The position numbers and the translations under genes are program-made. A stretch of 64,000 bases of DNA from Pratylenchus scribneri (lineage: Eukaryota; Nematoda; Chromadorea; Rhabditida; Pratylenchidae). This document shows, piece by piece, positions 9,343 to 39,463 of this stretch. Within the stretch, counting starts at the first letter, position 1. Every line of letters starts with the position of its first letter. The stretch is from positions 5,270,001 through 5,334,000 of the forward strand of contig JAQSEB010000023.1 of NCBI GenBank assembly GCA_030063045.1. Direction: 5' to 3'. The notes beneath the pieces were generated by a model. The model saw only the letters and a program-made list of their open reading frames with translations, had not been told where the DNA came from and did no database searches.

Positions 9343-9348
9343 TTTTCA
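9343..9348. repeat. Target site duplication, left copy
   Basis: TTTTCA lies directly before the AG that opens the left terminal repeat. The identical six bases lie directly after the CT that closes the right terminal repeat. A 6-base duplication is diagnostic of Maverick/Polinton integrase. Confidence 0.93.
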
Positions 9349-10361: not shown

Positions 10362-11827
10362 CTCAATGCTTCTTTCCATGGCGACGCTTCTTTTCCTTCT
10401 TTCCTTTCTTGGCCTTCTCGTTCGTTTCTGAAATTTTTCCAAAATTACCCCCCAATTAAAATTGCCCTTTAAACCAACCTTTCTTGCCGAACTTGCTGAA
10501 GTGCTTCCAATATGTGGCTTGAATTTGCTTCAAAGAGAAGACGCATGACGAGCACGTTGCAAAAAGCACTGCTTTTCCCACATGTTTGATCTGTTCAAAA
10601 TATTATTTTGCCCCAAAATTCCCCCCCCCCCCCCCCCAAAAATTACCTTCTCGACGCATCCCTCTCCCATTTTCTTTTGACGTTTGACGCAGTAGCCGCA
10701 CTGCGCAATTGCAATTTTGTATGTAGGGTAGCAGCTCTTGTAGTCGTCACTCTCCTCCATTCGGTAGCTCTCTGCCAATATTTTAGAAAATTTTTTTAAA
10801 AAAATTCTTCCCAAACTTACTCGTATGATCCATTTTTTCGCCAATTGTGCCGAAGAAGTGGGAAATTGTTTGGCTCATGCTGCTGTTCCCAATCAAACAG
10901 GGTTTGCACAAAATCACACGCATAATTAGCCCATTGGCCGTTGTTTGAATTGGGTTTATTTGCTTTTGGCTTTCCCGGCATTCATTGCATTGACTGACCG
11001 GCACGCAGTGGGCATAGGGCGAAATTTGCATCCAAGCATATTTGCCTGAAAACCAAAGAATTAAAATTAATTTTAAAAATAATTTTTTCCATCAAAAAAT
11101 AAAATAAATTGATTAAAAACCGATTTTTTAAATTAATTTTTTCCATCAAAAAACCCAAAATAAACTTACCGATTTTTTCCTCCTCTGGCTTTCGCTTCCA
11201 TTCGCCTTCTGATTCCGTTGATTTGCCATCGTCGTCATCATCTGAAGTATCGCCATCTTCTGCCGAATCATCATCGCTGCTGCTGCTGTCCGACGAAGAG
11301 GACGATGATGAACTACTGCTGCTGCTCGAAGAACTGCTGCTCTTCTTCTTCCCTTTCTTGCCTAAAAAATCGGCATTTTTACCCCTCCAAAATAAGCATT
11401 CCCGATTTTTACCCTTTTTGTTGGATTTGGCCTTTTTTTTTGCCGGTGGCACTTTGTCCTTGACGATTTTGGCCGTCACACCGGTTCTGCCTTTTGGTGT
11501 TGATTGTTTGCTGCCAGGTTTCGAAGTTGTGCCGGCTTTGGCAATGAGGGCTTCTGTAAACATAAAAATGAGTATTGGCCTTAATTTACGTGAAATAATC
11601 CCTCATTTTGACCTACCCAACGATTTGACATCGGCATCTTCCATTTTCGGCTTTTTTCCGCCCCCCTTTGCACCGTCCTTGTTTGCCCGTTTCCTGTTGT
11701 TTCGTTTTTTCAATTTCTTTGCATCGGCCGATTGTTCCACATTCTCGAAGCCATCCCGTGCATTGGTGTCATCATGTTGAAAAATCTTTTCGCCATCCGA
11801 TTCCGAAAGTACAATGTCATCGTCCAT
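10362..11827 (-). CDS. Ser/Lys-rich multi-CxxC protein carried by the Maverick
   Basis: Seven exons fit GT-AG and phase: 11827-11617, 11553-11413, 11361-11170, 11045-10821, 10771-10647, 10590-10479 and 10427-10362. The N-terminal half is disordered: an acidic start (MDDDIVLSESDGEK), Lys/Arg patches resembling nuclear-localisation signals (KKLKKRNNRKR, PPAKKKAKSNKK), then a run of about 17 Ser and an Asp/Ser acidic stretch. The C-terminal half holds repeated cysteine pairs (HCVPVSQCNEC, CKPC, CGYC, CSSC), consistent with metal binding, and ends in a Lys/Arg tail (KKGKKEKKRRHGKKH). I do not recognise the family. It lies inside the terminal repeats, so it is cargo or an element gene. The look is nuclear or chromatin-associated. 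Intron 5 contains a C17 tract. Confidence 0.68.
10621..10637. repeat. C17 homopolymer in an intron
   Basis: A run of 17 C (G on the coding strand of the Cys-rich gene) lies in the intron between exons 5 and 6. It is one of seven such tracts in the window. Confidence 0.95.
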
Positions 11828-14800
11828 CTTTGAGCCTTCGATCTTGGATGGATGCTTTGCTTTTTTTTGAATGTTGTTTGTAGAAAAACTGAAAAATAAA
11901 TGATGTAAAAATTTGATTAGAAAATGGTTAATGGGTCATTTTGAGAGGGTTGGATGGGCACTAAGAAAGCCGGAATGTATAAAAAATCTTTGCGAAAGGA
12001 TGTAAAATATTCATTTTTAAACTAAAAAACATTTTCAGGAAAAAATGTATTTTTGGAATTGGATTATTATAATTCTGAGAAAAGCCTCCATTTTTTTGGA
12101 AAAAATGAATTTTTCCCCGAGGAATATTCATTCAAGATGATAATTTTATTTTCTGTATATATTCATTCCAAAAAACATGTATTCATTAATTGTATTTTAT
12201 ATAAAGATGGAAATGAAAATGCTGAAAGGGGGCATTATTAAAGCCAAAATGTGTAAAAAATGTTTGCGAAAGGATTTAAGATATTCATTTTAAACTAAAA
12301 AATATTATGCATTTTTTGAAGAAATATTATTATTCTGAAAGAGCCTTTTAAATCAGTATTTTTGGAAAAAAGGATGAATTTTTCCCCGAGGAATATTCAT
12401 TCAATATGATAATTTTATTTTCTGGAAATATTCATTCCAAAAAACATGTATTCATTAATTGTATTTTATAGAAAGATGGAAATAAAAATGTGAAAGTGGG
12501 CATTATTAAAGCCAAAATGTGTAAAAATATTTACGAAAGGATGTAAGATATTCATTTTAAACTAAAAAATATTATGCATTTTTTGAAGAAATATTATTAT
12601 TCTGAAAAAGCCTTTTAAATCAGTATTTTTGGAAAAAAAGATGAATTTTACCCCTGGGAATATTCATTCAAGATAATAATTTTATTTCTGTAGTTTTTTC
12701 TGAAGGAAGAATATTCATTCCAAAAACATGTTTAATTGCATCCTATAGAAAGATGGTATTTTTGATCCTAATATTTCGGAAAAGATTTATTTTAGATTAA
12801 ATTTCTGAAAGATGAATTTTTAATGCAGGAAGTTTGTTTTCCCAAAAAATGGAAAAATTATTTAATTTTATTGGAATTATTCACAGAAAATAGGTGTAAA
12901 TTGATATGCGCTTTTTTTATGAATATTGAGGAATGGTAAATTTAGAGCAAAAAAATGCATTTGAGACCCTAATGGAATTTTGAGGGGAGAAAGGGAATTG
13001 AATTAATTTTAAACCATTCTTTTGCACTAATTTATACTCGATTTATGTCTTTATAAACCAATGTATAGAATTTGGTTTGATGCATCAATTGGCGTATTAT
13101 TTGTCATTTTTTAATTAAAATTAACTGTGGTAATTGCATTTATGATTTTTGCTTAAAAACTAAATTAGAATTAGTTAAACCCCAGCTAAAACATAGCCCA
13201 AATGATGCATCACTTTTCGAATGGAATAATGCCCATGGCCAAGGATTAAAATTCATAAAATTAACCATAAGAATAAAATTAATTCAATAAAATGTGAAAG
13301 GGGGAGATGTCTAAAAAATTGGAATGCATTTTTGGAGGGATATTGAGCGCTTTATCCACCAATTACGGTGTGCAGGACTGGTCAATTTCCCATAAAAATG
13401 ATGACAAAAAAATGGGAATTGCTGGATATTTTTGTTGGGAATGTATTCCGCGCTTTAATGCTTTAAATTAAGAAGCGGAAATGGCCAATTCAAATAGAAA
13501 TAATGTATGGAAAATGCTAAAGTTTTAGCTTTCCTTTTAAATGTTCAAATTAGTTATACTCCATAATCCATAGACTATTGGATAGAGCTTTATTGATGTA
13601 TTATTTTTCAATTTGTTCAAAATCAAAGGGTATTAATCCCTTTAGACAAATATTATTTTTTGGCTAAAAAATAACTTAGAATTCTATGCCCTCTATCGAA
13701 TGGAATATGGATTATGGTGCTAAGCTTAACTATTAAAAAGTTATTAAAATTGTATCAAAAAAATGCCATCTGCACCATTTTTATATTTTTTGGGGGGAAT
13801 GGGAAATGCCTGATTTCCACAGTAAAATGAGGCGCATATTATAATGACAAATATGAATAAAAGGGAGAGGAAAAGGTGGCAGTAGAAAATAATGAATGAT
13901 TTCCACAAAAATGATCCGATAAAGAGGGTGTAGGAGGAGCTTTCATTTTCCCAAAGCCTCAAACCTTTTTTTCTGTGTGTCTGTGCCATCCTCGGGGCGA
14001 TTTGGGAACGAACATTTTCTTAAGATTGGTTCTTCCTGATAAATTCCCTCCACCCCAATAAACCTTTTCTTCTCCACTTCATTCCCAACTTTTTTGGGGC
14101 CAGCCAAGAAAAGGTTGGGAATGGCAAAAAGGACAGCCCCATTCAGCTGCCGCTGATGACATTTTCCCCCTCATTTTCGAGGGGAGGCTGGAAATTGCCA
14201 CCCCAAAGGGGCACCGACCTTCTCTAAAATGAAGGGATTTGATTGGCAGGAAAATAAAAATATATTTATGAATCAAAGTTGGAAAAGCCCAAAAATAAAC
14301 ATTTTTAGTCAATTTTTAAATTTAATAAGAATTTTGGTGTATAAAAATGGAAGCGAAGAGATGGAATTATGAGAGGGAAATGATTCTCATTTTTTATGAC
14401 ACGAATGAAAAAAATGGAGGTTTTTTTTAAATTTGAATGGTGCCGCCAGCAAACTCTAACCATTTTTACTCAAATTCACGTTATCCATCTTCATTTTTTG
14501 TATCTTTATTCCATAAATTCTATACCTTTTAGGGAATTAAATGGAATTGAATAGTTTTTTTGAATATTACGAGCCTTCAAGCTATTTTTGTTCAAAATTA
14601 CATTTTTTCTTCAACATTTTTTTGTGTCTTAAATTCATTCAAATCCTATACTTTTTTTAGGGAATTTGCTGAAAAAAATTGAAATATTTTTTCCAATAGT
14701 ATTTGGTGTATTCGAACAATAAAATATCTTATTACATACATCCGAATTTTGTTCTAAAATCCAAATTTCTCCCTTCCAAATTATTTTTCAAGAGAATCCT

Positions 14801-15562: not shown

Positions 15563-18500
15563 ATTGAAAGTGAGCATTTGAAGGGGAAATCGACGTTCAA
15601 AGCATGCTTCGCCAATATCTACACATCAATTCAATCGAGCCATCGCTGTCATTGTCCCGAAAAACTTGGCCAAAATTCGACACATTCGGCGTTTCCCCGA
15701 AGACTTTCTTCAAACTTTATTCAAATTATTAATCAAAAGGGTCGTGTCCGAAGGGCGGAAAAGTTTTCGAGGTTCTCCCTTCCACCCCAAAATTCCCCAA
15801 TTTTCTTTATAATATTTCAGGAAAACCCAAATTCATTGGGGTCCAACTCCAAACAAAATATATGGACACCCCCTTTTGCATTCCCCTCCGTTCTCCCAGA
15901 CAAAATAATCCTAAAGCATTGACTGCCGAATTGCTCTCATTGGCCAAACAGTCCGGTGGCAGGCTAAGAATATTGAAATCGGCACTGAAATTGAAAATAT
16001 CTGCGGTTTGGCCACGTAAATTGGAAGGGGATTAAGGGGAAGAATTAAATGGAAAAATCTAATTTTAGTGGACAAAAAGGACATTACAAAAAAGATACGA
16101 AAAAGGCGCCGTTTTTTCGGCGCATGTTCGAATGAGGGAAAATGGCTGTCAAAGGAGGAAAAGCTCAGAAGGGGAATATTCCCAATTGTGAATGAGGAGG
16201 ATAATTTGTGCATGGCTCGAAGTATTGGCCTAGGCATAATCAAATGCCTGAAGGGAATGACAGCACTCCGCAAGTGGGGTAACGATGAACAGCGCCAAAA
16301 GGCATTGGCAATTTCAATTTTGAAGGTTAAAAATGTGAATAAATTTTGAATTTTTTTCCCCCCAAAAAATAGAAGGCTGGAATTCGAATCGATTTGAAGG
16401 CATATAACATGGGACATGTCAAAAAAATTCAAAAATTGTTGAATCGATGGAATTCGGGAATTCGAATCGGAATTTTGCATGCCGAAAGGGCCTTCAGAGT
16501 ATTGTTCAAAGGTGGAGGCCCAAAAAAATATGATCTGTTGCTCCTATTGAATGGTGCCCACTATGATTTGATTTATTCAACCAAAAAATTATTCCAAGTG
16601 AGTTTTTTGGGGGGGATTAAAGATGGAAAAAATAATTTTCTTATAGACAAGAGGCGAATTTTGTCTAGACTGTGAGGGGCCTGCTTACCGCTGGTCTCAC
16701 AATCGAAAATGCGTATATTCCTGCCAACTTTGCTATCGCTATGGGGAAAAATATCCATGCAAGGGGCGAGCTGCGATAAAATGCAATAATTGCCGTTTCT
16801 TCTTCCCAAATCGGGATTGCTTCAATTACCACAAAACCAGAGGGGAAAGGAATGGTGCAAGCATTTGCGAATCACGATATTTTTGTCCTAAATGTGATAA
16901 AGTGGTGAGTAAAAGGGCAAATTAATTCTAAAGCATTTATCTAAAACAGGTTTACAAAAGAGGAGGAAAACACCAATGTGAACAGTCGGAATCGGCTAAA
17001 AATGTTGGAATTGAAAAATGTGGCCAATGCTTTGTGATGAAAGCCATTGGTCATCCCCATTTTTGCTACATCCAACCAATTCAACCAAAAGTGGACACAC
17101 AGGATGTGAGATACATCTTCTTCGACATTGAAGCCAGTCAATCCGATCGGATTGAAGTAAATGGAATAAAAGTAAGGGGCAAATAATAAATTATGATTTT
17201 TTCAAAAAATGAATTCTTGAATTTTGTCAAATAATTTTGATTTTTTCCTAGTGTTATCGTCATATTCCCGTTCTTTTGGTTGCCGAAGTACTTTGTCAAT
17301 ATTGTATGGATTTGGGGGCAGTGCAATTCAATCGAGCGCCCAATTGTTGTTGTGGAGTATTCGGTGGAGGTCATTTCAAGTGGCGAAAAGCACAGTTGGA
17401 TCCCAGAAATCCTCGAGTATTGTTCTTTCATCAATTCGACAAAAACAACGAGCTAACTCCGGCCGAACAATTTTTGCATTTCCTTTTCAACTGTGGACCC
17501 AAGAATATGCGCACAATTTGCCTTTCCCATAACGGAGGCAAGTACGATATGCATTTACTTATGGACAAAATTTATGAGTGGCAGCTTCAACCAAAGATGA
17601 TAATGACCGGTTATTTTTGAAATTTGAACAAAAATTTCTAATTTTTTCAGGCCTAAAAATTTATAACATGGAAATTTATGTCAATCAACGCCGAATTGTG
17701 ATGAAGGACACTTTGAATTGGCTAACGGGCAGTTTGGCAGGATTGGTTGAAACTTTCGGAATTGGCGCCGAATATGCCAAACCACCTTTTCCACACAAAT
17801 TCAATAAGGCCAAAAATTTCGGCAAAGTTCTGCCTCATTTGCCGGCATTGAAATACTATTGTATAAAGGATATGAAAGTGGATGAACGGAATGAATTGCT
17901 CAGCTGGTGCAATGCAAACAAGCATCGCGAATTTGATTTGAACCGTGAATTGCTTGAATACTGTAGGAATGATGTGGCAATTTTAAAGTAAGTTTATCCT
18001 ATTTTCATATCGATCAAAATGTTTAAAAATATTTTCCAAGATTCGCATGCATTCGATTTCGTGAAATAATAAGAAGTATTGCCCCCAATGTCGAGCCATT
18101 CCTTCACACATCCACTTTGGCAAAGTTGGCTTTCAATATTTGGAGAATGGAATTTTTGCTCCCAAATTTGCTCCTCAACATTCCCGAAGAAGGATTTCGG
18201 CCCCAACATCTGCAATCTGCTCAGGCTCGACAATTCTTTGCCCTTTTTACAAAAATGACTGGTCGGCGAGTGAGAACAGTGGACACATCCGTTGATGGCG
18301 AACACATTTCGAGACATCCTGAGGTCAATTCAAAACATGGAAAAGGAGATTTTCGAGTTGATGGACTGCTCGAACCGCGCACACCCGACGAACAACCAAC
18401 CATTTTGGAGTTTTACGGTTGTTATTATCATGGTAAGTGTAAGGGAATGAAAAAATGGGCCAAAATATTCAAAAAAAAGGTTGTGAGAAATGTTTTGTCG

Positions 18501-20426
18501 ATCGGGAAAAACCACTTCAAAGAGGCAGAACTGCGGAGGAATTGTTTGAACGAACACGACAACGACGAATTGAGCTGGAACGCCGGGGCTATAAAGTGTT
18601 GGAAGTTTGGAATTGCGAGCTGCAAAAAATGTTGAGAGAAAACAAAAAGACTCGCAAATTGTGGAATTCGCTGCAACTGCCTCCACCGCCACTCAACCCC
18701 AGAAAGAACGCATTGAGAGGAGGGAGGGTAGAGCCCTTTGTTTTATTCACAGAGGCGGGACCCGATGAACGAATTGAACTCTTCGACATTGTAAATTTTT
18801 GGGGATTTTGGGTGAGAAAAATCTTTTTAAAAATATAGGTGAGCCTATACCCAAGTGTGATGAAGAGTTCACCATATCCACTTGGTACGCCAATGGTGTA
18901 CGGAGAAGAGGATTTCAGGCGGCTGGGCCTTCCCAAATTGCCATGGCATGCAACCTTCCCCAAAGGAATGGAAGGATTGATGCTCGTCAAAGTTTTGCCA
19001 CCCCCAAAAATGCCCATGCCAATCGGTGCCCAACAACCATTTCCCCCATTTCTTCCATACAAAACGCGTGAAGGGTTACTGGTATTCCCGCTTTGTGCCC
19101 GTTGTTCTGACACACAAAATCAAAAGCGATGCTCACATTCGGATGAGGAAAGGGCTTGGATTGCTGCATTCCCCCATCAAGACCTTGAGATGGCACTCGA
19201 ATTGGGCTACACCATTCTCGATCTTTATGAAGTGAGTTTTGGGGTATAAAAATGTACTCATAAAATCCCTACAGTTTTGGCATTGGCCCCAGGAACAATG
19301 GACAAATTCAGGCCCACATAAAGATTTGTTCCGTGAATATATCAATGCCATGTTAAAATTAAAGGTAAAAAGAGGGGGATTAATCAAAAAAAAAAAAACC
19401 AAAATTTCACAGGTTGAAGCGTCGGGTTGGCCCTCAAATATGGATTCGGATGAGGCACGGCAGGAATTCATTCGGCAATATGCGGAACGGGAAGGAATTG
19501 TGCTGGATGCCACCTCAATGGACAAAATCAACAAAGGATTGAGGATGATCGCGTATGTTCCGCATTTATGGGTTGGGAAATTTCCAATATTTTTAGTAAA
19601 CTCCTATTGAATAGCCTGTGGGGTAAGATGTCACAAAGGCCAAACCCGTCCACCGTCATCATCACCAAATCCGCCAAACAACTGCATGAATTGTTGGAGG
19701 ATCCGACCCGTGAAGTTGTGGATTTTTGCCATTTGAATGCATTCCTGGATCGGGTGGTTGTTCGACAGAAGCCTGAATTCCTAAAACCTCCATCCACAAA
19801 CAATGTAGTGATCGCAAGCTTTGTCACTTCACATGGTCGGAGGCGCACATATCAAGCAATTCAAGAGGCAATTCGACTTGGTCATCAACTCATTTACACG
19901 GACACCGATTCAATTGTGACAAAACGACGAGTGGATCAACCCCGAATCAGTGAAGGTAGAAAATGAAATATTTGGGGGGTGAAAAATCGTTTTCTTAGGA
20001 CAATTTCTCGGTGACATGCAAAGGGAACTTGAAAACCGCATTGTCAAGCGATGGCTTGCAGCAGGCCCAAAAAATTACGCATACGAACATACCGATTTGG
20101 AGGGCGGAGATCTGAAACTCACACGACGAATCCGGGGCTTCAAACTCAGCTATCGTGCTTCAAAACGGCTCACATTTGAGAAAATGCGCGCGGAAATGTT
20201 TTCTCGTTTTGGTGGAGAGAAGAAAAGGTGGGGTGCAAAATCTGAGGATGAAAAATAAAATAATTTTTTAAAGAAAATGCCAATTCATTCGATACAATGT
20301 GTTTAGACGGCATAAGAAGGGCTGGCTTTATACAACCACAATGAAGAAAGAATACAGTGCTGTTTGTGGCAAATCGATTATCCGAGGGGATTATACCACA
20401 AAACCATTTGGATGGATTGGAGATTA
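15563..20426 (+). CDS. Maverick protein-primed DNA polymerase B, multi-exon
   Basis: About 17 exons join in phase, among them 15900-16015, 16069-16325, 16373-16597, 16647-16904, 16950-17171, 17252-17609, 17651-17987, 18041-18432, 18480-18790, 18839-19231, 19275-19364, 19413-19552, 19597-19955, 19999-20227 and 20307-20426. The exonuclease motifs are FFDIEAS (Exo I), SHNGGKYDMHLL (Exo II) and YCRNDVAIL (Exo III). The polymerase motifs are DIVSLYPSV (A), KLLLNSLWGKM (B) and IYTDTDSIV (C). The YYHGCEKCF element is typical of Maverick/adenovirus-like polymerases, and a Cys-rich region at about 16650-16900 precedes the exonuclease. It would replicate the element with a protein primer in the nucleus. 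The 5' end is uncertain: the first accepted exon opens at an AG at 15561-15562, and upstream coding exons are possible. Almost every motif is intact, so it is likely functional. Confidence 0.93.
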
Positions 20427-23205: not shown

Positions 23206-23667
23206 TTAATTGGCAAATATTTTATCATCAACAAATTTGTTAATAAACCGATCAATGGAACCGGGGATTGATTTAAGAAAGCGAAGGGTTTCCTCAAAAG
23301 ATTTTCCTTTTGAACGAGCATAGAGAAAAAATATGGCATGTTGGCCACAAGATTTGGAATATTCACTTTGCAGGGCATAAGGATTAAAGCGGATTCGATT
23401 AAATTTGGCCAAATATTCCGTAATATTCGAATTCAGTGGAGGCCAAAGCCCCAATGAATCGTAATAGTCAACATCGTTAGGCGAAATTGAAAAAATGGCT
23501 ACCCAATGGGAACCTTTGAATTCAGAAGGATCAAAATTCACAACCATTGAATGGGGATATTTGCCTGGAGAAATTTTCAATAGTTGATCCGAGGCAAAAC
23601 AACCCAGATAAAAAGGAGCAGTTATGTGATTTCTTTTCAGAATTTTGTCGATTTGTCGACTTTCCAT
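23206..23667 (-). CDS. Adenain-type cysteine protease of the Maverick
   Basis: This intronless gene encodes 153 residues from the ATG at 23667. The catalytic set typical of adenain/Ulp1-like proteases is visible: His in KGSHWVAIF, Asp in VDYYDSLGLWP, Gln in YALQSEYS and the nucleophile Cys in KSCGQHAIFF. The family processes capsid precursors during virion maturation. The gene lies between the penton-like and pVI-like genes. The region just upstream of the ATG holds an 18-base G/C homopolymer, and an open frame runs through it, giving a proline run in that frame that I do not count as coding. All expected motif residues are present, so the enzyme is probably active. Confidence 0.9.
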   Translation of the reverse strand: MESRQIDKILKRNHITAPFYLGCFASDQLLKISPGKYPHSMVVNFDPSEFKGSHWVAIFSISPNDVDYYDSLGLWPPLNSNITEYLAKFNRIRFNPYALQSEYSKSCGQHAIFFLYARSKGKSFEETLRFLKSIPGSIDRFINKFVDDKIFAN

Positions 23668-23673
23668 TTGAGT

Positions 23674-23691
23674 GGGGGGGGGGGGGGGGGG
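23674..23691. repeat. G18 homopolymer in the 5' leader of the protease gene
   Basis: Eighteen G on the plus strand lie 6 bases before the protease ATG and 5 bases after the penton-like stop codon. Slippage here would change the leader length but no reading frame. Confidence 0.95.
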
Positions 23692-23696
23692 AATAT

Positions 23697-24830
23697 TTAA
23701 AAATAGGCAGCTTTTCGGAAATGTAAAGTCAATATACAATTTCCAAACATGAAAGGCATCAATACACCATTGGCGGTGCGAATTTCAATAAAAATTTCAC
23801 TGATTTCCTTCACCAGTAATTTATGGTATTGAATGGCGAAGAATTGTTCCTCCACAATTTCATCTGCTGCACCTCGAATTGTGACGGCACGGAGAATGGG
23901 AGCAGTTACATCACCAAACATCATTGGCTCTATCAGACCAGGCGCATAAACCAGAAATGAGGAAACTCCTCCCTTTAAATCCGGCATGAATTTAGCCACG
24001 GTAGTTTCCGTTAAAACCTGCCTCTCAAATCCAAGAATGTATGAGAGCTGTTCACTCAATTCAACCTGTTGAATAAAACCCGAGTCCAAATGAAATGTGA
24101 AACGATTATGGGTTGGATCAAATTGAAGCCGGCAAGCAAAATTTACATGCCGATAAGCATGAATCCATGATTCTAGGCCCTTTTGCTTAGTTTGATCTAA
24201 AATTGAGCGATCTTCATCATCAAGCAGTGCGATTTCCTCATTCAAATAGCGATTGTAGAGTTCCTCTAAAGTTGGTAAATTTTCGGAAGAAGTTGGCTGC
24301 TCTTCTTCCTCTATTTGGGAACTTTCTCTTTCCTGTCGTTCCAGAACAGTTTGAGCACCTTCTAAATCGGAGACTTCCTCAATGTCTTTGACTAGGGAGG
24401 GAGCTTTTCTTTTTCGAGATTTTTTTTTTGTTGCTTTCCCATGTTCCTCTCGGGCTCGATTTTCGGCCTTTTTAACAACTTCAAGAAACGAGAACTGTGT
24501 GGTTCTTACTTTCTTTGCCAGCTCTTCACTCCCAGATTGCAATGCTTTCGTCATTGCCTTGGTCAATTCATGAGGATTAGTGAATGTGCTTGAAGGGAGT
24601 TCAATTCGGACATTTTCTCCCGTTTTCCATACAACATTCAGAAATTGCTGAGTGTTTGTACCCAATGAGGGCCATGTGTGTGGATAAACCAACACGGCCA
24701 ATCCCACTGACCATTCTGAATTGAATTGAAGTTTATGAGGGAGGCGAACTCTAAAAGAATTTGTCTTATTCCCATCGACATTGGTATTTGAGGGTAAAAT
24801 AATGTAGAAAGATGTGGAAGAAGTCGTCAT
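23697..24830 (-). CDS. Maverick penton-like minor capsid protein
   Basis: This intronless gene encodes 377 residues. The start SFYIILPSNTNVDGNKTNSF, followed by a 'VRLP...LQFNSEWSVGLAVLVYPHTW' pattern, is the hallmark opening of the Polinton minor capsid (penton-like, single jelly-roll) protein. Later blocks LSYILGFE and LVYAPGLIEPMMFGD match the same family. A charged, low-complexity insertion (about residues 130-210: Lys/Arg patch KKKSRKRK, then Glu-rich stretch) separates the N- and C-terminal parts and makes this copy longer than typical. It would sit at the capsid five-fold vertices. It is first in the local group penton-protease-pVI-MCP. Confidence 0.85.
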   Translation of the reverse strand: MTTSSTSFYIILPSNTNVDGNKTNSFRVRLPHKLQFNSEWSVGLAVLVYPHTWPSLGTNTQQFLNVVWKTGENVRIELPSSTFTNPHELTKAMTKALQSGSEELAKKVRTTQFSFLEVVKKAENRAREEHGKATKKKSRKRKAPSLVKDIEEVSDLEGAQTVLERQERESSQIEEEEQPTSSENLPTLEELYNRYLNEEIALLDDEDRSILDQTKQKGLESWIHAYRHVNFACRLQFDPTHNRFTFHLDSGFIQQVELSEQLSYILGFERQVLTETTVAKFMPDLKGGVSSFLVYAPGLIEPMMFGDVTAPILRAVTIRGAADEIVEEQFFAIQYHKLLVKEISEIFIEIRTANGVLMPFMFGNCILTLHFRKAAYF

Positions 24831-24879: not shown

Positions 24880-26010
24880 TTATTCTTTCCAGTAAAGTTC
24901 ACTTGATGGAATCCAGCTATTATATTCAGGGCCATAGCCCTTCCATTTAACAAACAAATATTCCACATCGTCTTTTTTTCTATTTTTTAAAATTTTTTCA
25001 ATATCATAGAGGGGCATTTCCGTATTCGTTTCTTTCTTACGAATTCGACTGAAATCGGATGAGTAAAATTTACCTTTAATTATTTCACCTTCCCTATCTC
25101 GAATTCTGTACGTAATGGGTTGATAGGGAACTTTGTCTCGTACCTGGTCAATAATGAATATTTCGTTGGTGAAATTTGGGGTATATCCTTTTTGGAAAAT
25201 ATGTTTATGTTTCTCAATTCGAACCATATCGCCAACTTTGAATTTTCCCAAATCGGATTTGTTTTTAAATTTTTCGATAGCTTTTTGTTCAAGTTTTCGT
25301 CTAAGTGTCTCGGCATTTTCAAAATTTACATCCACTGGCCTCATGCCGATCGAACGATTTATTGTGTGGTTTATTGAGTTCACAATTTTCTGGATCACTC
25401 CAATCCAATTCTGCGTTTGTCTTTCCGTAAAGAGGCGATAAAGACGTTCTTTGATTGTTCTATTGGCACGTTCTGCCATTCCAGCATGGAATTTTGGGTT
25501 TAACATACAAAAATGTTGAATTTCATTTCGGCTAAAATATTCTTGAACTTGTTTTGCCATAAATTCTTTTCCCTGATCCGTTTTCAGTTTCCAAGGTAAA
25601 TGGCCTACTCGAGAAAATATTTTTTCAAATGCCTTCACCATGTCTGGTGCTGATTTTGTCTTGACTGGCTCAACAAAAATTTGTCGGGAGAGAGCATCGA
25701 TGCAGACCAACAAATATTTGTAGCCCCGATTTTGGCGAGAAAGTCGATCCAAAATAGCCAAATCGGCTTGCCATTCAGTATGCAAACCAGGGGCGAGTGT
25801 TGGAAGTGTTGGATAGCGGCGAACAGCTCTTCTATGAAGAGTATAAGCATGCTGTGATTCCAGATATTTTTTCACTTCATTTTGTGTAATATCTTTTCGA
25901 ATTTTTTTCGCTTCCCGATAGATTGGAACAACAGAGGTATATGCAGATGTGGAATTTATATCTTTATAGAGGCGATCGAGAATTTGATTTTTGGATTTCA
26001 TCACTTCCAA
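24880..26010 (-). CDS. Maverick retroviral-type integrase with C-terminal chromodomain
   Basis: This intronless gene encodes 376 residues. The DDE core is visible: first Asp in TEWQADLAILD, second Asp in LKTDQGKEF, and Glu in HAGMAERANRTIKERL, about 35 residues after the second Asp, as in rve-type integrases. After the core comes an SH3-like segment (KFKVGDMVRI). The C-terminus is a chromodomain (YDIEKILKNRKKDDVEYLFV, then KWKGYGPEYNSWIPSSEL), which would bind methylated histone tails and bias target choice. It cuts the element ends and makes the 6-base duplication seen here. The start overlaps the next gene's end by 10 bases. All catalytic residues are present. Confidence 0.96.
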   Translation of the reverse strand: MEVMKSKNQILDRLYKDINSTSAYTSVVPIYREAKKIRKDITQNEVKKYLESQHAYTLHRRAVRRYPTLPTLAPGLHTEWQADLAILDRLSRQNRGYKYLLVCIDALSRQIFVEPVKTKSAPDMVKAFEKIFSRVGHLPWKLKTDQGKEFMAKQVQEYFSRNEIQHFCMLNPKFHAGMAERANRTIKERLYRLFTERQTQNWIGVIQKIVNSINHTINRSIGMRPVDVNFENAETLRRKLEQKAIEKFKNKSDLGKFKVGDMVRIEKHKHIFQKGYTPNFTNEIFIIDQVRDKVPYQPITYRIRDREGEIIKGKFYSSDFSRIRKKETNTEMPLYDIEKILKNRKKDDVEYLFVKWKGYGPEYNSWIPSSELYWKE

Positions 26011-26855
26011 AGAGTGGGCTTAAATTTAAATGAAGAATATTTTCTTTCATCTTTATATGTCTTTTTTATATGGGTCATTCCCGAACCGGATTGATGTCTT
26101 TGTTGCTTTAGGCCTAGAATTTTTATTAATTCAGGATGCCTGTTTATTCTTTCCACAAATTTTTCGTATCCCGGTGGTAGCGGTTTACGGCGATTTCCTT
26201 CGTTGTTCACCAAATGATCAATAATGGTGGAGACATTGCTTGTTTTAATAACCTGGGGGGCTCCGCCCACAGAATTCACCATTACCTGCCCATGACTGTT
26301 CAGACCTAATGATGCTAAATTTCTGGCAACATATTCATTTGCCCGTTTTTTTCTGGTCACAAAAGGGTCGGTCCCACTTGTACTTGCTTCTTTTTGGCTC
26401 TTGGCATCTTCATATATTTCATCTTCTTCTTCTTCTTCTCCAACGTTATCATCAAAAACTGAAACGGATTCCGCATTTCCCCCTTTTTTCAATGTTTTTG
26501 AGAATTTTCCCGTTTTCCGACGATGATAAGTCTTTTTGGTTGGAGCTATAATTGCTGAGTTTAGAGTTTTTTCTACTTTTTGGGGTAGGGAATCGGCAAT
26601 TTCTTCTATATTTTGAAGACGAACATTCAAAGGTTTTTCCTCTTGTTCTTTCTGTAGCTTACTATAGCGTTTATATTCTTGATCGAATCGAATTGCGCGT
26701 TCATCCCTATTCATTTTCTGGTCAATGGGTGCGGTGAGATTTTGCATTTTGGATTGGATATGCCCAAGTGGGCTTCCATCTTGATTCTGTTGGGAGGAGA
26801 AGAAATGCTGATAGAGCTCTTCAGGAATAAGAAACATACGATTTGAATGTTTCAT
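26001..26855 (-). CDS. Conserved Maverick protein of unknown function, coiled and charged
   Basis: This intronless gene encodes 284 residues starting MKHSNRMFLIPEELYQHFF. It has a charged helical segment (FDQEYKRYSKLQKEQEE), a Lys/Arg-rich stretch (KKTYHRRKTGKFSKTLKK) and an acidic loop (EEEEEDEIYED). The C-terminal motif TIIDHLVNNEGNRRKPLPPG, then YEKFVERI, resembles the 'IIDLIN...P.GW..F' end of an uncharacterised protein found in many animal Mavericks. It lies between the integrase and the small basic protein. A scaffold or DNA-packaging role is conceivable. The family match is by memory of its style and is moderate. Confidence 0.62.
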   Translation of the reverse strand: MKHSNRMFLIPEELYQHFFSSQQNQDGSPLGHIQSKMQNLTAPIDQKMNRDERAIRFDQEYKRYSKLQKEQEEKPLNVRLQNIEEIADSLPQKVEKTLNSAIIAPTKKTYHRRKTGKFSKTLKKGGNAESVSVFDDNVGEEEEEDEIYEDAKSQKEASTSGTDPFVTRKKRANEYVARNLASLGLNSHGQVMVNSVGGAPQVIKTSNVSTIIDHLVNNEGNRRKPLPPGYEKFVERINRHPELIKILGLKQQRHQSGSGMTHIKKTYKDERKYSSFKFKPTLWK

Positions 26856-26920: not shown

Positions 26921-27316
26921 TCATCCAAATGTTTTTGAAATTATTTTCTCCGCAAGAACGGGCAATATTATATTAGCCAACAATGCCGGCACCAGTGGGA
27001 GACCTTCACCTTTTTGCGGGATTCCGCTATGTAAAAGGGCTCTGGCGGTTTTGCTTGAACGGCAGCGGGACAGTTTTCTTAAAGTTCCAGCTTGCTTTTT
27101 TAGGGAATTCAGCGAACGTTTAGGGATGGGAATACGTCCCTTCAGCAAATTGAAACAAGTTTCAACTAGACATAACAACTCTTTACCCGTTGCGCTATTC
27201 AGTAAAGCTCTAATTTTTGGGCGAGATTTTCCACATTGCTGAATATTTTTCAAAAAATTGATGTTCTCTTTTATTAGGGGACTAAATTTAATCAACTTTT
27301 TGGCTTTCTTGGTCAT
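26921..27316 (-). CDS. Small basic conserved Maverick protein (core/pX-like)
   Basis: This intronless gene encodes 131 residues. The middle part (LRKLSRCRSSKTARALLHSG) matches the pattern of a conserved small Polinton protein, in which a row of basic helices precedes a Gly/Pro hydrophobic tail (GEGLPLVPALLANIILPVLA). The protein has a high Lys/Arg content and a possible membrane-active C-terminus. Its ATG overlaps the stop of the ATPase gene by 4 bases, so the two are probably translated from closely linked messages. The likely role is a virion core or internal protein. Confidence 0.62.
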   Translation of the reverse strand: MTKKAKKLIKFSPLIKENINFLKNIQQCGKSRPKIRALLNSATGKELLCLVETCFNLLKGRIPIPKRSLNSLKKQAGTLRKLSRCRSSKTARALLHSGIPQKGEGLPLVPALLANIILPVLAEKIISKTFG

Positions 27317-28041
27317 TTTGGTAAATAAACGGTGGTAGGTTGACCCTCATCCGAGTATATATTTGTTCTGAGACGGAGCGAGTCAACTGTTGCTGGATGG
27401 ATATCAATTAGTAAATAGCCAAAATTTTTACGAATGGCATCCGAATATGCTTCTAAGAAATAGGGAACTTTGGAGGGAAATAATTGTACGGCGAGATTTC
27501 GAATCTGTAATGCACCAGCCGGATTGCGTAATAGAACAATATAGTGAGAATTATTTCGAGGAATTCTTAGTTCTTTAGTAAATAGATGCTGCGTAACCAA
27601 AACGACACTTACTCCCCAATTATGGGAGGCTCGAGTGAATAGCGAGTCCAAAAATTCTTTGTTGCCTCCTATACCTGTCATAAGATCATCTAGCACAACT
27701 AAAAGATGGCCATTTGTCTGTTTAGCATGAGTTCGAAGCAATTCCTCACTAGGAAAGCCATGATATGTCAGCAGCTGAATTCCCCCATCTTCTATTTTCC
27801 CCCTTCTTTGCATTTGTAGAATATTTGGGTTCAATTCTCCATAGCAATAAAGGATAAGAGCTATTGGAGAGGGTTCCGCTTCTCCATTTCCTATTATTAA
27901 TTTTCGAAAATTTTTAAAAAGTCGGAGAATCCATTCCGATTTACCACTTCCAGTACTGCCAGAAACAATCATAGTGAAGGGATGACGAAATCCTAATTGG
28001 AAGGATTGAATTTCTTCACCTAGAAGATTTGAAGAAGCCAT
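27313..28041 (-). CDS. Maverick genome-packaging ATPase (FtsK/HerA/A32-like)
   Basis: This intronless gene encodes 242 residues. The Walker A motif is in FTMIVSGSTGSGKSEWILRL and Walker B in LLVVLDDLMTG. A downstream block with GVSVVLVTQHLF (sensor Gln) and RNNSHYIVLLRNP follows the order seen in A32/FtsK-HerA packaging ATPases of Polintons and large DNA viruses. The enzyme would pump the replicated element into capsids. The gene starts a leftward group of nine ORFs and faces the PAZ gene across a 113-base divergent intergenic region. The length is normal for the family. Confidence 0.93.
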   Translation of the reverse strand: MASSNLLGEEIQSFQLGFRHPFTMIVSGSTGSGKSEWILRLFKNFRKLIIGNGEAEPSPIALILYCYGELNPNILQMQRRGKIEDGGIQLLTYHGFPSEELLRTHAKQTNGHLLVVLDDLMTGIGGNKEFLDSLFTRASHNWGVSVVLVTQHLFTKELRIPRNNSHYIVLLRNPAGALQIRNLAVQLFPSKVPYFLEAYSDAIRKNFGYLLIDIHPATVDSLRLRTNIYSDEGQPTTVYLPK

Positions 28042-28154
28042 TTTTATTTCCCACCCCTAAGGGGTATTGCGTATATATAGTGAGGGAAATTATTTGAAAT
28101 CTTTCATTTCATCATTTTTAAAAAATCTTTCTTTTATTTCATCATTATCAAAAA
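28042..28154. promoter_or_regulatory. Divergent promoter region between ATPase and PAZ genes
   Basis: The 113 bases between the two start codons contain a TATA-like run (gtatatatag, about 28071-28080) and, nearer the ATPase, a dyad cccctaagggg (about 28053-28063). Two pyrimidine-rich repeats (ttcatcattttt/ttcatcattatc) precede the PAZ ATG. The element also encodes a TBP-like protein, so a TATA box here is of interest. Function is inferred from position. Confidence 0.5.
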
Positions 28155-28994
28155 ATGGAGTTTATGCTGGCTAATGATTGGCTCCAAGTGATCAACAACA
28201 CCTCAAACAATTCACAGGAGGCCGATATTTCCACCCCAATCCCCGAAAAGGTAAATATGATTTTTCGCGCTAAAATTATTTCTTTTTAGAAAAATGACGT
28301 GGAAATTCAAATGGATGAGGCTGAAGACTCGGATCATGAAGACATTTTGAAGATTTTGGAATCCGATGACGATGACCTGATCACTGTACGGGATGAGAAT
28401 GAGAAAGAGGAAAAGCTGGATGAGGGAAAAGAGAATCGCGTGCCCCCGAAAGGAAAACAAAATCTGGGTATTTCATTCGGCTTGAATTAATTTTCGTTTA
28501 AAATATTTTAGATGGGAAGAAGGAATGCAAATGCAAGGAAGAGCAAGCCCATTGGACTCCGCTGATTGACCATCTTTGCGAAAAATTTGGATGTTCGGTG
28601 AAAGAGCTGCAAATCATTTTCAATGGGCTTGAAACTCGGCGGGAAGTCATCGCATATTTGCGGGAGAATGTGGCCCTGAAAACCTCACATTTGAAACCGG
28701 CCGGCCACAATTTCATCGTCCGATGCTGCGATTTGACCAATCTCCCGGCCAGTTGCGTTCCAGCCTTGGGCGGTTATTTGAATGTGACGGTTAGTTTTTT
28801 GCTTAAGACATTTTCTTATCCATTTTTTTTCACAGGTACGGGCCTACTATTACATCAAGCACGGGATGAAGCTTCGTCATCCATATTTCCCATGTGTGAT
28901 CCAATACGGCGGTGGGCGGCACCAATCGTATTTCCCCCTTGAGGTACTGCAAGTTGCAAGCCGACGAATTAAGAAGAATCAATACAAATGGTGA
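28155..28994 (+). CDS. Stand-alone PAZ-domain protein carried by the Maverick
   Basis: Four exons join in phase (28155-28250, 28290-28467, 28512-28789, 28836-28994) to give 236 residues. Residues 1 to about 90 are acidic and disordered (DEAEDSDHED, ESDDDDLITV). From about residue 95 to the end the pattern follows the Argonaute PAZ domain. WTPLIDHLCEKFG aligns with the 'PVIQFMCE' start, FIVRCCDLTNLPAS with 'YRVCNVTRRPAS', and AYYYIKHGMKLRHPYFPCV with 'YF...Y.LKYP.LPC'. SYFPLEVLQVASRRIKK aligns with 'TYLPLEVCNIV...IKK'. PAZ domains bind the 3' end of small RNAs. There is no PIWI, MID or RNase III part before the stop or before the next gene. Two pocket aromatics are changed (Y to F, Y to H). 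The gene sits between the ATPase and the TBP-like gene, inside the terminal repeats. Confidence 0.85.
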
Positions 28995-29102
28995 AGGTCC
29001 ATTCCACAAATACACACCCCCCAAATATCAATATTCATTTTAAAATATTTTCTCAATTTCTTGACATTCATTTTTTTCCCAATTATGCGATAAACTATTT
29101 AG

Positions 29103-29814
29103 ATGAAAATTGAAAATTGCAGTGTTGTTTTCCGTCTTTTCCCTTCCAATTCCCCCAAAAAAATCCCACATCAACAATACCTAGCAATTGCCCGAAATGG
29201 ATGGAATTTGGAATTTTGTCCTCGACGTTTTCATGCAATCATCATGCGATTCCCTGTCCAAAATGCTGAAGGGAAAAACAATGTAATTGCCGCTTTGATT
29301 TTCAAATCAGGAAAAGTTGTTTTGACTGGTGTTCCCTGTCCCGGTTTGTCCTTTCCTTTTTTACTACCTCCCAAAGGAATGAGCTTTAGAAATGGCTGAA
29401 TTTGCTGCGAGAAAAGTTTCAAGAAATTTGAGAATGGCTGCTCGAAGAGGTCAACACCCGTTCGAAAAGAGAGATGGCCTGATTTATGGAATGCGAATTG
29501 TGAACATTGTCGGAGCACATCAAATGCCGCATCGTGTGGGCATTGAGCGAATTCATGAACTTTGGCGTCTCAAAAATATAGAGGGAATTTTGGCAGAAGA
29601 TGCCCGATTTCGGCTGATTTCCAAAAGCACATATGACCCGACAATTTTCCCGGCGCTTCGTTGTAAAATTTTCATCAATGATGGCACCAGCGCAATTGCC
29701 AGTATCCTCGTGTACACAACAGGCAAAATAATTGTTACTGGAGTTCAAGAAGTCAAGCAGCTAGAAGAAATTTTCAATTCATTAATTCCACTTCTCTCCC
29801 AATTCCCTCGCTAA
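29103..29814 (+). CDS. TATA-binding-protein-like protein carried by the Maverick
   Basis: Two exons (29103-29328, 29390-29814) joined by a 61-base GT-AG intron give 216 residues, the size of a TBP core. Repeat 1 runs from IENCSVVFRLF through CPRRFHAIIMRF to ALIFKSGKVVLTG, then AARKVSRNLR. Repeat 2 runs from MRIVNIVGAHQM through STYDPTIFPALRCKIF to ILVYTTGKIIVTG. Order, spacing and the 'SGK-V-TG' signatures match TBP. Of the four DNA-kinking Phe, three are kept (RRF, LIF, IFP) and the fourth is Tyr (LVY). TBP bends promoter DNA and recruits the transcription machinery. The gene lies 108 bases after the PAZ gene and 287 bases before the right terminal repeat. Introns and divergence argue against a recent copy of host TBP. 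Confidence 0.87.
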
Positions 29815-30100: not shown

Positions 30101-30343
30101 AAAATTCACATTCCCTCGAGTCATAATCAAACATTGCCCACAAGGGCACCATTGTCCTCAATGGCACCAAGGTAAACGTTTTGATCAATGCCCCAAATCG
30201 GCATCACCCTCCTCCTCCATTTGGTCATTCATCAAAGAGTCCTTCCTCCACATTCAAACCCATCACATACCTATTCGCTTCACCATCTTTTTGCATTCGA
30301 CACAAAAATGTCGAAAAAAAAGATGGTGTAAAATAATACTACT
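30101..30343. repeat. Right terminal inverted repeat
   Basis: Reverse complement of 9349-9595 with about ten differences, ending in ...taatactact at 30343. The same hairpin (accatctttttgcattcgac / gtcgaaaaaaaagatggt) is present. Confidence 0.95.
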
Positions 30344-30349
30344 TTTTCA
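30344..30349. repeat. Target site duplication, right copy
   Basis: TTTTCA directly follows the right terminal repeat and equals 9343-9348. Confidence 0.93.
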
Positions 30350-31359: not shown

Positions 31360-32143
31360 AACATTTTAGGTTTTTGTAGCCCCAAACATTTAAATGTTTT
31401 TGTAGCCCCAAACATTTAAATGTTTTTGTTGCCCCAAACATTTAAATGTTTTTGTTGCCCCAAACATTTAATGTTGCCCCAAACATTCTATGTTTTTGTT
31501 GCCCCAAACATTTAAATGTTTTTGTTGCCCCAAACATTTAAATGTTTTTGTTGCCCCAAACATTTAAATGTTTTTGTTGCCCCAAACATTTAAATGTTTT
31601 TGTTGCCCCAAACATTTAAATGTTTTTGTTGCCCCAAACATTTAAATGTTTTTGTTGCCCCAAACATTTAATGTTGCCCCAAATATTTTAATTTTTTGTT
31701 GCCCCAAACATTTAAATGTTTTTGTTGCCCCAAACATTTAATGTTGCCCCAAATATTTTAATTTTTTGTTGCCCCAAACATTTAAATGTTTTTGTTGCCC
31801 CAAACATTTTATGTTGCCCCAAATATTTTAATTTTTTGTTGCCCCAAACATTTTATGTTGCCTCAAACATTTTATCTTGCCCTAAACATTTTAATATTTT
31901 TGTTGCCCCAAACATTTTATGTTGCCCCAAACATTTTATCTTGCCCTAAACATTTTAATATTTTTGTTGCCCCAAACATTTTATGTTGCCTCAAACATTT
32001 TATCTTGCCCTAAACATTTTAATATTTTTGTTGCCCCAAACATTTTATGTTACCCCAAACATTTTATCTTGCCCTAAACATTTTAATGTTTTTATTGCCC
32101 CAAACATTTTATGTTGCCCCAAACATTTTATTTTTTTCCTAAT
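31360..32143. repeat. Minisatellite inside pseudogene exon
   Basis: The unit is about 26 bases, with core gccccaaacatttaaatg followed by tttttgtt, near-identical from 31378 to about 31670. It then grades into longer composite units built from ttgccccaaacattttatg, ttgccctaaacattttaat and atttttg. The unit contains the palindrome aaacatttaaatgttt. Both strands are open over long stretches because unit lengths often preserve frame, but no gene is implied. Confidence 0.92.

Positions 32144-35941: not shown

Positions 35942-39463
<3,522 letters not shown>

Follow-up and report, generated by a model that had tools for sequence, protein, structure and literature searches.

The window, that is, the whole stretch of 64,000 nucleotides of Pratylenchus scribneri DNA analysed here, contains a whole Maverick. 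The initial annotation had proposed that this element carries a gene for a TATA-binding protein (TBP) between its PAZ gene and its right terminus. In this study, we found terminal inverted repeats (TIRs), a 6-bp target site duplication (TSD), PolB and integrase around the gene, which agrees with a Maverick-borne TBP. The PAZ-like gene (about 28152-28994) and the element end (30343) were located on its two sides, as proposed. The features are as follows:

9343-9348: target site duplication TTTTCA, left
9349-30343: whole Maverick, TIR to TIR, 20,995 bp
17578-19966, plus strand: PolB pieces (DNA_pol_B_2); the sole piece above the cut-off is 17578-17991
23206-23784, minus strand: protease candidate with weak Ulp1/adenain-like matches (C48 14.9 bits, C5 12.5 bits, both below cut-off)
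24880-26019, minus strand: integrase (rve) with chromodomain (Pfam, rve 52.2 bits)
27313-28056, minus strand: packaging-type ATPase, divergent from the PAZ gene (Pox_A32 22.2 bits, just below the cut-off of 22.8)
28072-28079: TATATATA box in the gap separating the divergent ATPase and PAZ genes; no other TATATATA occurs in the window
28152-28994 (about; exon limits by reading), plus strand: PAZ-like gene in four exons, directly 5' of TBP
29085-29102, plus strand: TTTAG directly ahead of the TBP start, a candidate acceptor for trans-splicing or ordinary splicing
29103-29343, plus strand: TBP-like gene, exon 1, with the first of the two TBP repeats (Pfam and comparison of 19 copies)
29344-29389, plus strand: TBP-like gene, intron, GTTTGT...CTTTAG, 46 nt (comparison of 19 copies)
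29390-29814, plus strand: TBP-like gene, exon 2, with the second repeat, an altered stirrup for TFIIB contact and the stop
30344-30349: target site duplication TTTTCA, right

The TIR arms were traced to 30321, the right element end was placed at 30343, and the two 6-bp TSD copies matched perfectly. The PolB piece at 17578-17991 scored 43.9 bits with PF03175. The Pfam PAZ match of the PAZ-like gene was weak (23.3 bits versus a cut-off of 28.8), and a 447-aa capsid candidate had no match in Pfam or PHROGs. The TBP gene, directly 3' of the PAZ-like gene, is the last one ahead of the right terminus. On the minus strand at 10530-11935, the element also has a gene region in which a low-complexity part, acidic and basic, occurs along with Cys pairs; it gave no convincing Pfam match. 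Just beyond the element, tandem AAACATTTAAATGTTTTTGTTGCCCC repeats were observed at 31360-31815 of the window. The flanking host genes, both on the minus strand, were a helicase piece with HA2 domains (36977-37429) and a gene with a weak match to glycosyl hydrolase family 59, below cut-off (56001-56402).

Of the 40 loci examined, 13 (L009-L021) had a right terminus that could be assigned with confidence. The insertion flanks of these loci and of the window, 14 in total, all differ and therefore represent separate insertions. No shared insertion-site motif was seen by eye at the 14 sites, and integration targeting was set aside for this reason.

The TBP gene is intact and under selection

Splicing of 29103-29343 to 29390-29814 gives a protein of 221 aa without internal stops, ending at the stop codon at 29812-29814. 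TBP (PF00352) was the sole Pfam family found in this protein, in two stretches, with 77.7 bits (E 6.2e-22; cut-off 22.9 bits). The exons measured 241 and 425 nt in all 19 copies of the window family (F1), window included, while the intron varied between 41 and 60 nt, a pattern that rules out a false intron. The frame was open in 18 of the 19 copies, L009 having one internal stop. The two-exon, two-repeat TBP gene that was annotated at the outset is thus borne out by the uninterrupted 221-aa frame, the two Pfam stretches and the constant exons, and the PF00352 search named there as a check accepted the protein as TBP.

In the F1 family, mean dN was 0.030 and mean dS was 0.256, a ratio of 0.118 (10 of the 19 copies, 45 pairs). 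The ratio was 0.07-0.21 in the other families, each sampled with one to three copies, and also 0.07-0.21 over the five comparison sets as a whole. Four loci with shortened or broken frames (L034, L036, L048, and L050) were excluded from these calculations and from the tree. These ratios indicate that purifying selection is acting on the element TBP. The dN/dS of the ATPase came out undefined, perhaps owing to the much more distant ATPase of L029. At that locus (C76:1001300-1007300), an F1-family TBP adjoins an ATPase that is only 72% identical, the arrangement of a mosaic element.

An AlphaFold2 model was obtained for a database relative, P0009, which is 40% identical to the window protein (pLDDT 92.1, pTM 0.82). 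All 44 PDB matches of this model with E <=0.001 were TBPs or TBP complexes, and its matches among viral structures included several named TBPs of giant viruses. A saddle fold of the TBP type is predicted from this model, the support coming from P0009 and not from the window protein itself.

TBP is a regular gene of Mavericks in the genome

We searched the 227-Mb assembly with a TBP profile, and 128 exon matches were merged into 70 loci. The window ATPase had at least 150 relatives in the genome (150 scored of 302 candidates). Among the ATPases listed, a Maverick ATPase lay within 15 kb of 53 of the 70 TBP loci, a zone covering 2.0% of the genome. At 45 of these 53 loci, the TBP was 0.97-1.58 kb from the ATPase on the opposite strand, as in the window; at six the distance was 8.33-8.35 kb and the strand the same, and the remaining two were C90 (5.3 kb) and C82 (at the contig start). 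The synteny with sister Mavericks for which the initial annotation had called is therefore found, the TBP-ATPase arrangement being that of the window at 45 of the 53 loci.

Among the other 17 TBP loci, four had a PolB on the opposite strand at 2.3-2.4 kb, three had one at 5.4-5.7 kb, two had a PAZ match within 0.4 kb, and two (L051 and L055) resembled the element families by sequence only. Five were host-like, namely a TBP (L049) and its twin, a TBP paralogue (L001 and L002) and a TLF-like gene (L052); the last, C179, fell into none of these groups. By our sorting, 64 of the 70 TBP loci are linked to Mavericks, 60 of them through a neighbouring ATPase or PolB. Among the best 150 of the 302 ATPase candidates, a TBP was nearby at 53 of the 58 loci with at least 51% identity to the window ATPase and at none of the 92 loci with 50% identity or less.

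Relatives and phylogeny of the element TBP

A protein search returned 16 relatives, from Meloidogyne enterolobii (P0009-P0011), Heterodera trifolii (P0015-P0017) and unnamed metagenome records. The three H. trifolii gene models, which are named TATA-box-binding protein, read as the N-terminal portion of the homologous PAZ gene with TBP after it, and are probably Maverick genes. Since these models join a PAZ part to TBP, the gene order seems to be kept across the two genera; this reading comes from gene models, in which the fusion may be real splicing or a prediction artefact.

In a tree of 37 rows, the window protein fell into clade A (support 100/100), whose 13 rows comprise families F1-F5, M. 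enterolobii, H. trifolii and metagenomes, and which sits on a long branch. Clade B (the 8.3-kb type, four rows) had support of 100/98. Clade C (the PolB-side type, two rows) had support of 100/100, and its metagenome sisters joined it with 97/91. Host TBP paired with the host paralogue (100/96), and both grouped weakly with yeast TBP (89/44). Because clade A is a separate clade with full support and host TBP groups with its own paralogue, clade A is no recent copy of host TBP. The initial annotation had named a recent broken copy of host TBP under relaxed selection as the outcome that would speak against it. In the phylogeny against host TBP the element TBPs form their own 100/100 clade, and relaxed selection did not appear (dN/dS of about 0.12 in 10 of the 19 F1 copies). 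An AU test rejected none of the groupings A+B (p 0.199), A+B+C (p 0.182) and A with nematode TBPs (p 0.375), so the TBP captures may have been one or several, from one source or more. An old origin from a nematode TBP is possible (p 0.375).

In L052, the TLF-like gene, F116, F190 and F207 are missing; it has a separate position in the tree, with a long row and an unsure placement. Clade A neither groups with L052 nor shares its lost kinking Phe residues, and membership in TLF/TRF2 was rejected with that reservation on the placement. Clade A also lay apart from L058 and L059, the two viral-contig rows in the tree. IMG/VR yielded no relative of clade A, of the clade-C metagenome sisters (A4), of clade-B P0031 or of the window ATPase, which led us to reject viral contamination. 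With the clade-C profile, IMG/VR gave three distant TBPs (L058, L059, and L060), and the neighbours of L059 were giant-virus-like.

PAZ adjoins TBP in clades A and B. In L006 (C41) and L007 (C13), the clade-B TBP comes after a PAZ-like gene and a candidate protease that weakly matches adenovirus endoprotease. Two clade-C TBP and PolB pairs were found in mirror image, about 12 kb apart, at C131:356911-377597. Among the 138 PAZ matches listed (150 scored of 256 candidates), some were also near ATPases of TBP-less Mavericks, e.g. C1:1007226 with the ATPase at C1:997032.

DNA contacts are kept and the TFIIB surface is changed

The 13 clade-A rows were aligned with yeast TBP, whose residue numbers are used here. 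Both minor-groove Asn residues and F99, F116 and F190 were kept in all 13 rows, and F207 was Tyr in 10 rows and Phe in three. The window protein keeps both Asn residues. The reading of three kinking Phe with Tyr as the fourth, made in the initial annotation, was reproduced (Phe at 99, 116 and 190, Tyr at 207).

At the TFIIB-contact positions of clade A, E186 was replaced by D in 13/13 rows, E188 by T in 12 and S in one, and L189 by I in 10 and by M, Q or V in the others. The window protein has D, T and I at these positions. Contact of these two glutamates (E186 and E188) with TFIIB is stated in PMC7221094. Since the TFIIB-contact residues are changed in 13/13 rows, the window protein appears to be a member of the TBP family with a changed TFIIB surface, and not a standard TBP.

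We take A86, N91, E93 and R107 to be TFIIA-facing positions. In clade A, A86 was kept in 13/13 rows, N91 and E93 in 11/13 each, and R107 in 9/13; the window protein has P at position 107. The longest invariant block in the alignment of the 16 database relatives was YDPTIFPALR (10 residues), from which families F4 and F5, outside that alignment, depart. The two clade-C rows showed the reverse of clade A, with the TFIIB residues kept and the TFIIA positions changed, and the clade-B row L007 had N, E and I at the TFIIB positions.

A TATA box is conserved ahead of the PAZ gene

A single TATATATA in a window is roughly the chance expectation (shuffle mean 1.32), so the weight rests on the place and conservation of the box and not on its number. 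There were 41 clade-A loci (the window and L009-L048), and the PAZ-start pattern matched 40 of them. In all 40 scored copies, which are akin and amount to about six families as independent units, TATATATA was located 46-88 nt upstream of the PAZ start, with flanks that differ among families. The locus that the pattern missed, L044, has CTATATATAAAG instead. TATATATA occurred in 344 of 8000 shuffled 160-mers and in 37 of 5000 random element 160-mers. Upstream of the ATPase in 20 TBP-less Mavericks, TATATATA was found in 0/20 and the looser TATATAWR in 4/20, an imperfect control in that the ATPase there mostly follows another gene and does not face PAZ. The clade-B loci L005-L008 have TATATAAAG, which in L006 lies 75 nt ahead of the PAZ start, inside the end of the preceding gene. 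In clade C, no such box was found at L003 and L004, and the two in L057 are both downstream of the TBP start.

The box does not by itself prove use by the element TBP, and host TBP alone could use it. The TTTAG that adjoins the TBP start would fit both a spliced-leader operon and alternative splicing from PAZ.

TFIIB-like genes occupy the same place in other Mavericks

Seven TFIIB-like genes were found beside Mavericks (C157:219963, C48:1248593, C150:1034504, C172:107824, C130:330236, C142:697222, and C109:1533216; L081 and L082). They belong to two families, from each of which one protein was scored against Pfam TFIIB (51.0 and 28.9 bits; cut-off 23.6). In five of the seven cases (C150, C172, C109, C130, and C142), the TFIIB-like gene is directly 3' of PAZ, the TFIIB match beginning 19-22 nt after the PAZ match in 5/5, and at C150 the two frames overlap, which makes the gene border there provisional. 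The genes on C157 and C48 are 92% alike and lie 0.5 kb from a facing ATPase; by our reading, a PAZ-like piece without a Pfam match precedes the one on C157. At four further loci, the TFIIB match was in the zinc ribbon only. The seven TFIIB-like genes had no TBP match within 15 kb, and a search beside clade-A elements gave no TFIIB-like gene. PAZ is followed by TBP in some lineages and by TFIIB in others, which points to an exchangeable place after PAZ.

Discussion

We consider it probable that the gene encodes an element-borne TATA-binding protein that has long been part of one nematode Maverick lineage, and that this protein would serve host Pol II as an initiation factor with a preference for the element's own TATATATA promoters. 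The data above establish what the gene is, where it lies, its copies with their open frames, the purifying selection on it, the conserved TATA box and the changed residues; expression, DNA binding, partner choice and promoter selectivity of the element TBP are inferred. The protein would be made along with the PAZ-like protein from the TATA promoter within the element, take the usual saddle fold and bend TATA DNA. Its first lobe would still resemble a TFIIA-binding surface, and in its second lobe the TFIIB-contact glutamates would be replaced, with YDPTIFPALR in most rows. Host Pol II initiation complexes would then be built preferentially at the element's TATATATA promoters, via an altered or different TFIIB-type contact. 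Because the first lobe is still similar to a TFIIA-binding surface and the TFIIB glutamates are replaced, an altered contact with a TFIIB-type partner at the element's own promoters is the most likely function.

The main rival is interference with the host. In such a case, the element TBP would occupy host TATA boxes or titrate TFIIA, no transcription would start for want of TFIIB contact, and host expression would be lowered or redirected. The DNA-contact residues are kept and the TFIIB glutamates are gone in 13/13 clade-A rows, in favour of this reading. However, the segment that replaces them has 10 residues invariant across 16 relatives, and such conservation suggests a partner rather than mere loss; clade-C TBPs retain the TFIIB residues, and germ-line elements would presumably gain little by a general shut-off. 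We therefore regard interference as rather improbable. The altered TFIIB surface together with the conserved TATATATA would favour use at the element's own promoters over diversion of the host.

A role outside initiation is another alternative, and we think it quite unlikely. Integration of Ty3 is guided to promoters by TFIIIB, and an element TBP might likewise steer integration to promoters, mark element DNA for packaging or, with the PAZ protein, shield the element from silencing. The adjacency of PAZ and TBP in clades A and B, and the TFIIB-like gene after PAZ in five of seven cases, are in keeping with such a role, but the 14 insertion sites share no motif by eye and the conserved TATA box sits in a promoter. 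It is very improbable that the gene is a passenger in decay or a recent host TBP copy that the element picked up. In favour of such a copy, the AU test does not reject a grouping of clade A with nematode TBPs (p 0.375), and one of the 19 copies has a stop. The separate 100/100 clade on its long branch, the signal of purifying selection and the relatives in Meloidogyne and Heterodera speak against such a copy; the tree, the 18 of 19 open frames and the dN/dS of about 0.12 rule it out as recent or decaying.

Initiation at the element's own promoters is thus our preferred reading, and it can be extended, more tentatively and with somewhat less than an even chance of being right, to the Mavericks of tylenchid nematodes in general. 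These may have an exchangeable slot after PAZ for a private general initiation factor, either TBP or TFIIB. An element of about 20 kb without its own RNA polymerase would then run a partly orthogonal promoter system on host Pol II, with its own TATA box and a TBP or TFIIB whose TBP-TFIIB interface is re-made, and this system would be tied to a PAZ protein that might dampen silencing by small RNAs.

These results suggest that such elements supply some of the gene-switching machinery themselves, in the form of an apparently functional TBP. General initiation factors are known from large viruses, several of which have their own polymerase. Three element types of a small animal transposon-virus with TBP, and a further two with TFIIB, would show that basal factors can be captured in the absence of a viral polymerase. 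The element TBP makes promoter choice, and the expression of an integrated element in a silencing host, testable, and the element TBPs provide naturally occurring variants of TBP in which the TFIIB surface is altered. The data also suggest that some Heterodera entries named TATA-box-binding protein and uncharacterized Meloidogyne proteins are Maverick genes and not host genes.

The window element shares PolB, integrase, ATPase, TIRs and a 6-bp TSD with known nematode Polintons/Mavericks. To our knowledge, the canonical Polinton gene set includes no TBP, TFIIB or PAZ genes. Our literature search, whose coverage of nematode Polinton and Caenorhabditis Maverick papers was weak, found no text on TBP, TFIIB or PAZ of a Maverick/Polinton. 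Animals have a TBP paralogue, TLF/TRF2, with a changed promoter choice. The element TBP resembles it in being a TBP paralogue, but the host TLF-like L052 is without F116, F190 and F207.

That large DNA viruses carry TBP-like proteins, as the initial annotation had noted, is in line with the two-lobe virus-encoded TBPs described in PMC7221094, in which the DNA-binding residues are kept and the TFIIB-contact positions have diverged. The main text of that paper contains neither "Maverick" nor "transpos". Mirusviruses have TBP as a core gene, present in 59% of genomes (PMC10132985), and algal elements of putative mirusvirus origin carry TBP genes (PMC10675990). However, mirusviruses belong to a different virus class and capsid lineage from the window Maverick, and our 37-row tree was built without mirusvirus TBP. 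The poxviral VITF-3, a TBP/TFIIB-like pair, is described in PMC12917281 as initiation factors derived from TBP and TFIIB. VITF-3 acts with the viral RNA polymerase, whereas here TBP and TFIIB are in different elements and no hint of an element-borne RNA polymerase was noticed. Virus-encoded TBPs and the poxviral TBP/TFIIB pair are therefore known, while TBP and TFIIB in Mavericks may be new. As in clade A, the TBPs of giant viruses (NCLDV), ascoviruses and others keep the DNA contacts and diverge at the TFIIB positions (PMC7221094). Giant-virus genomes are much larger, whereas the TBP of the window sits in a 21-kb animal Maverick.
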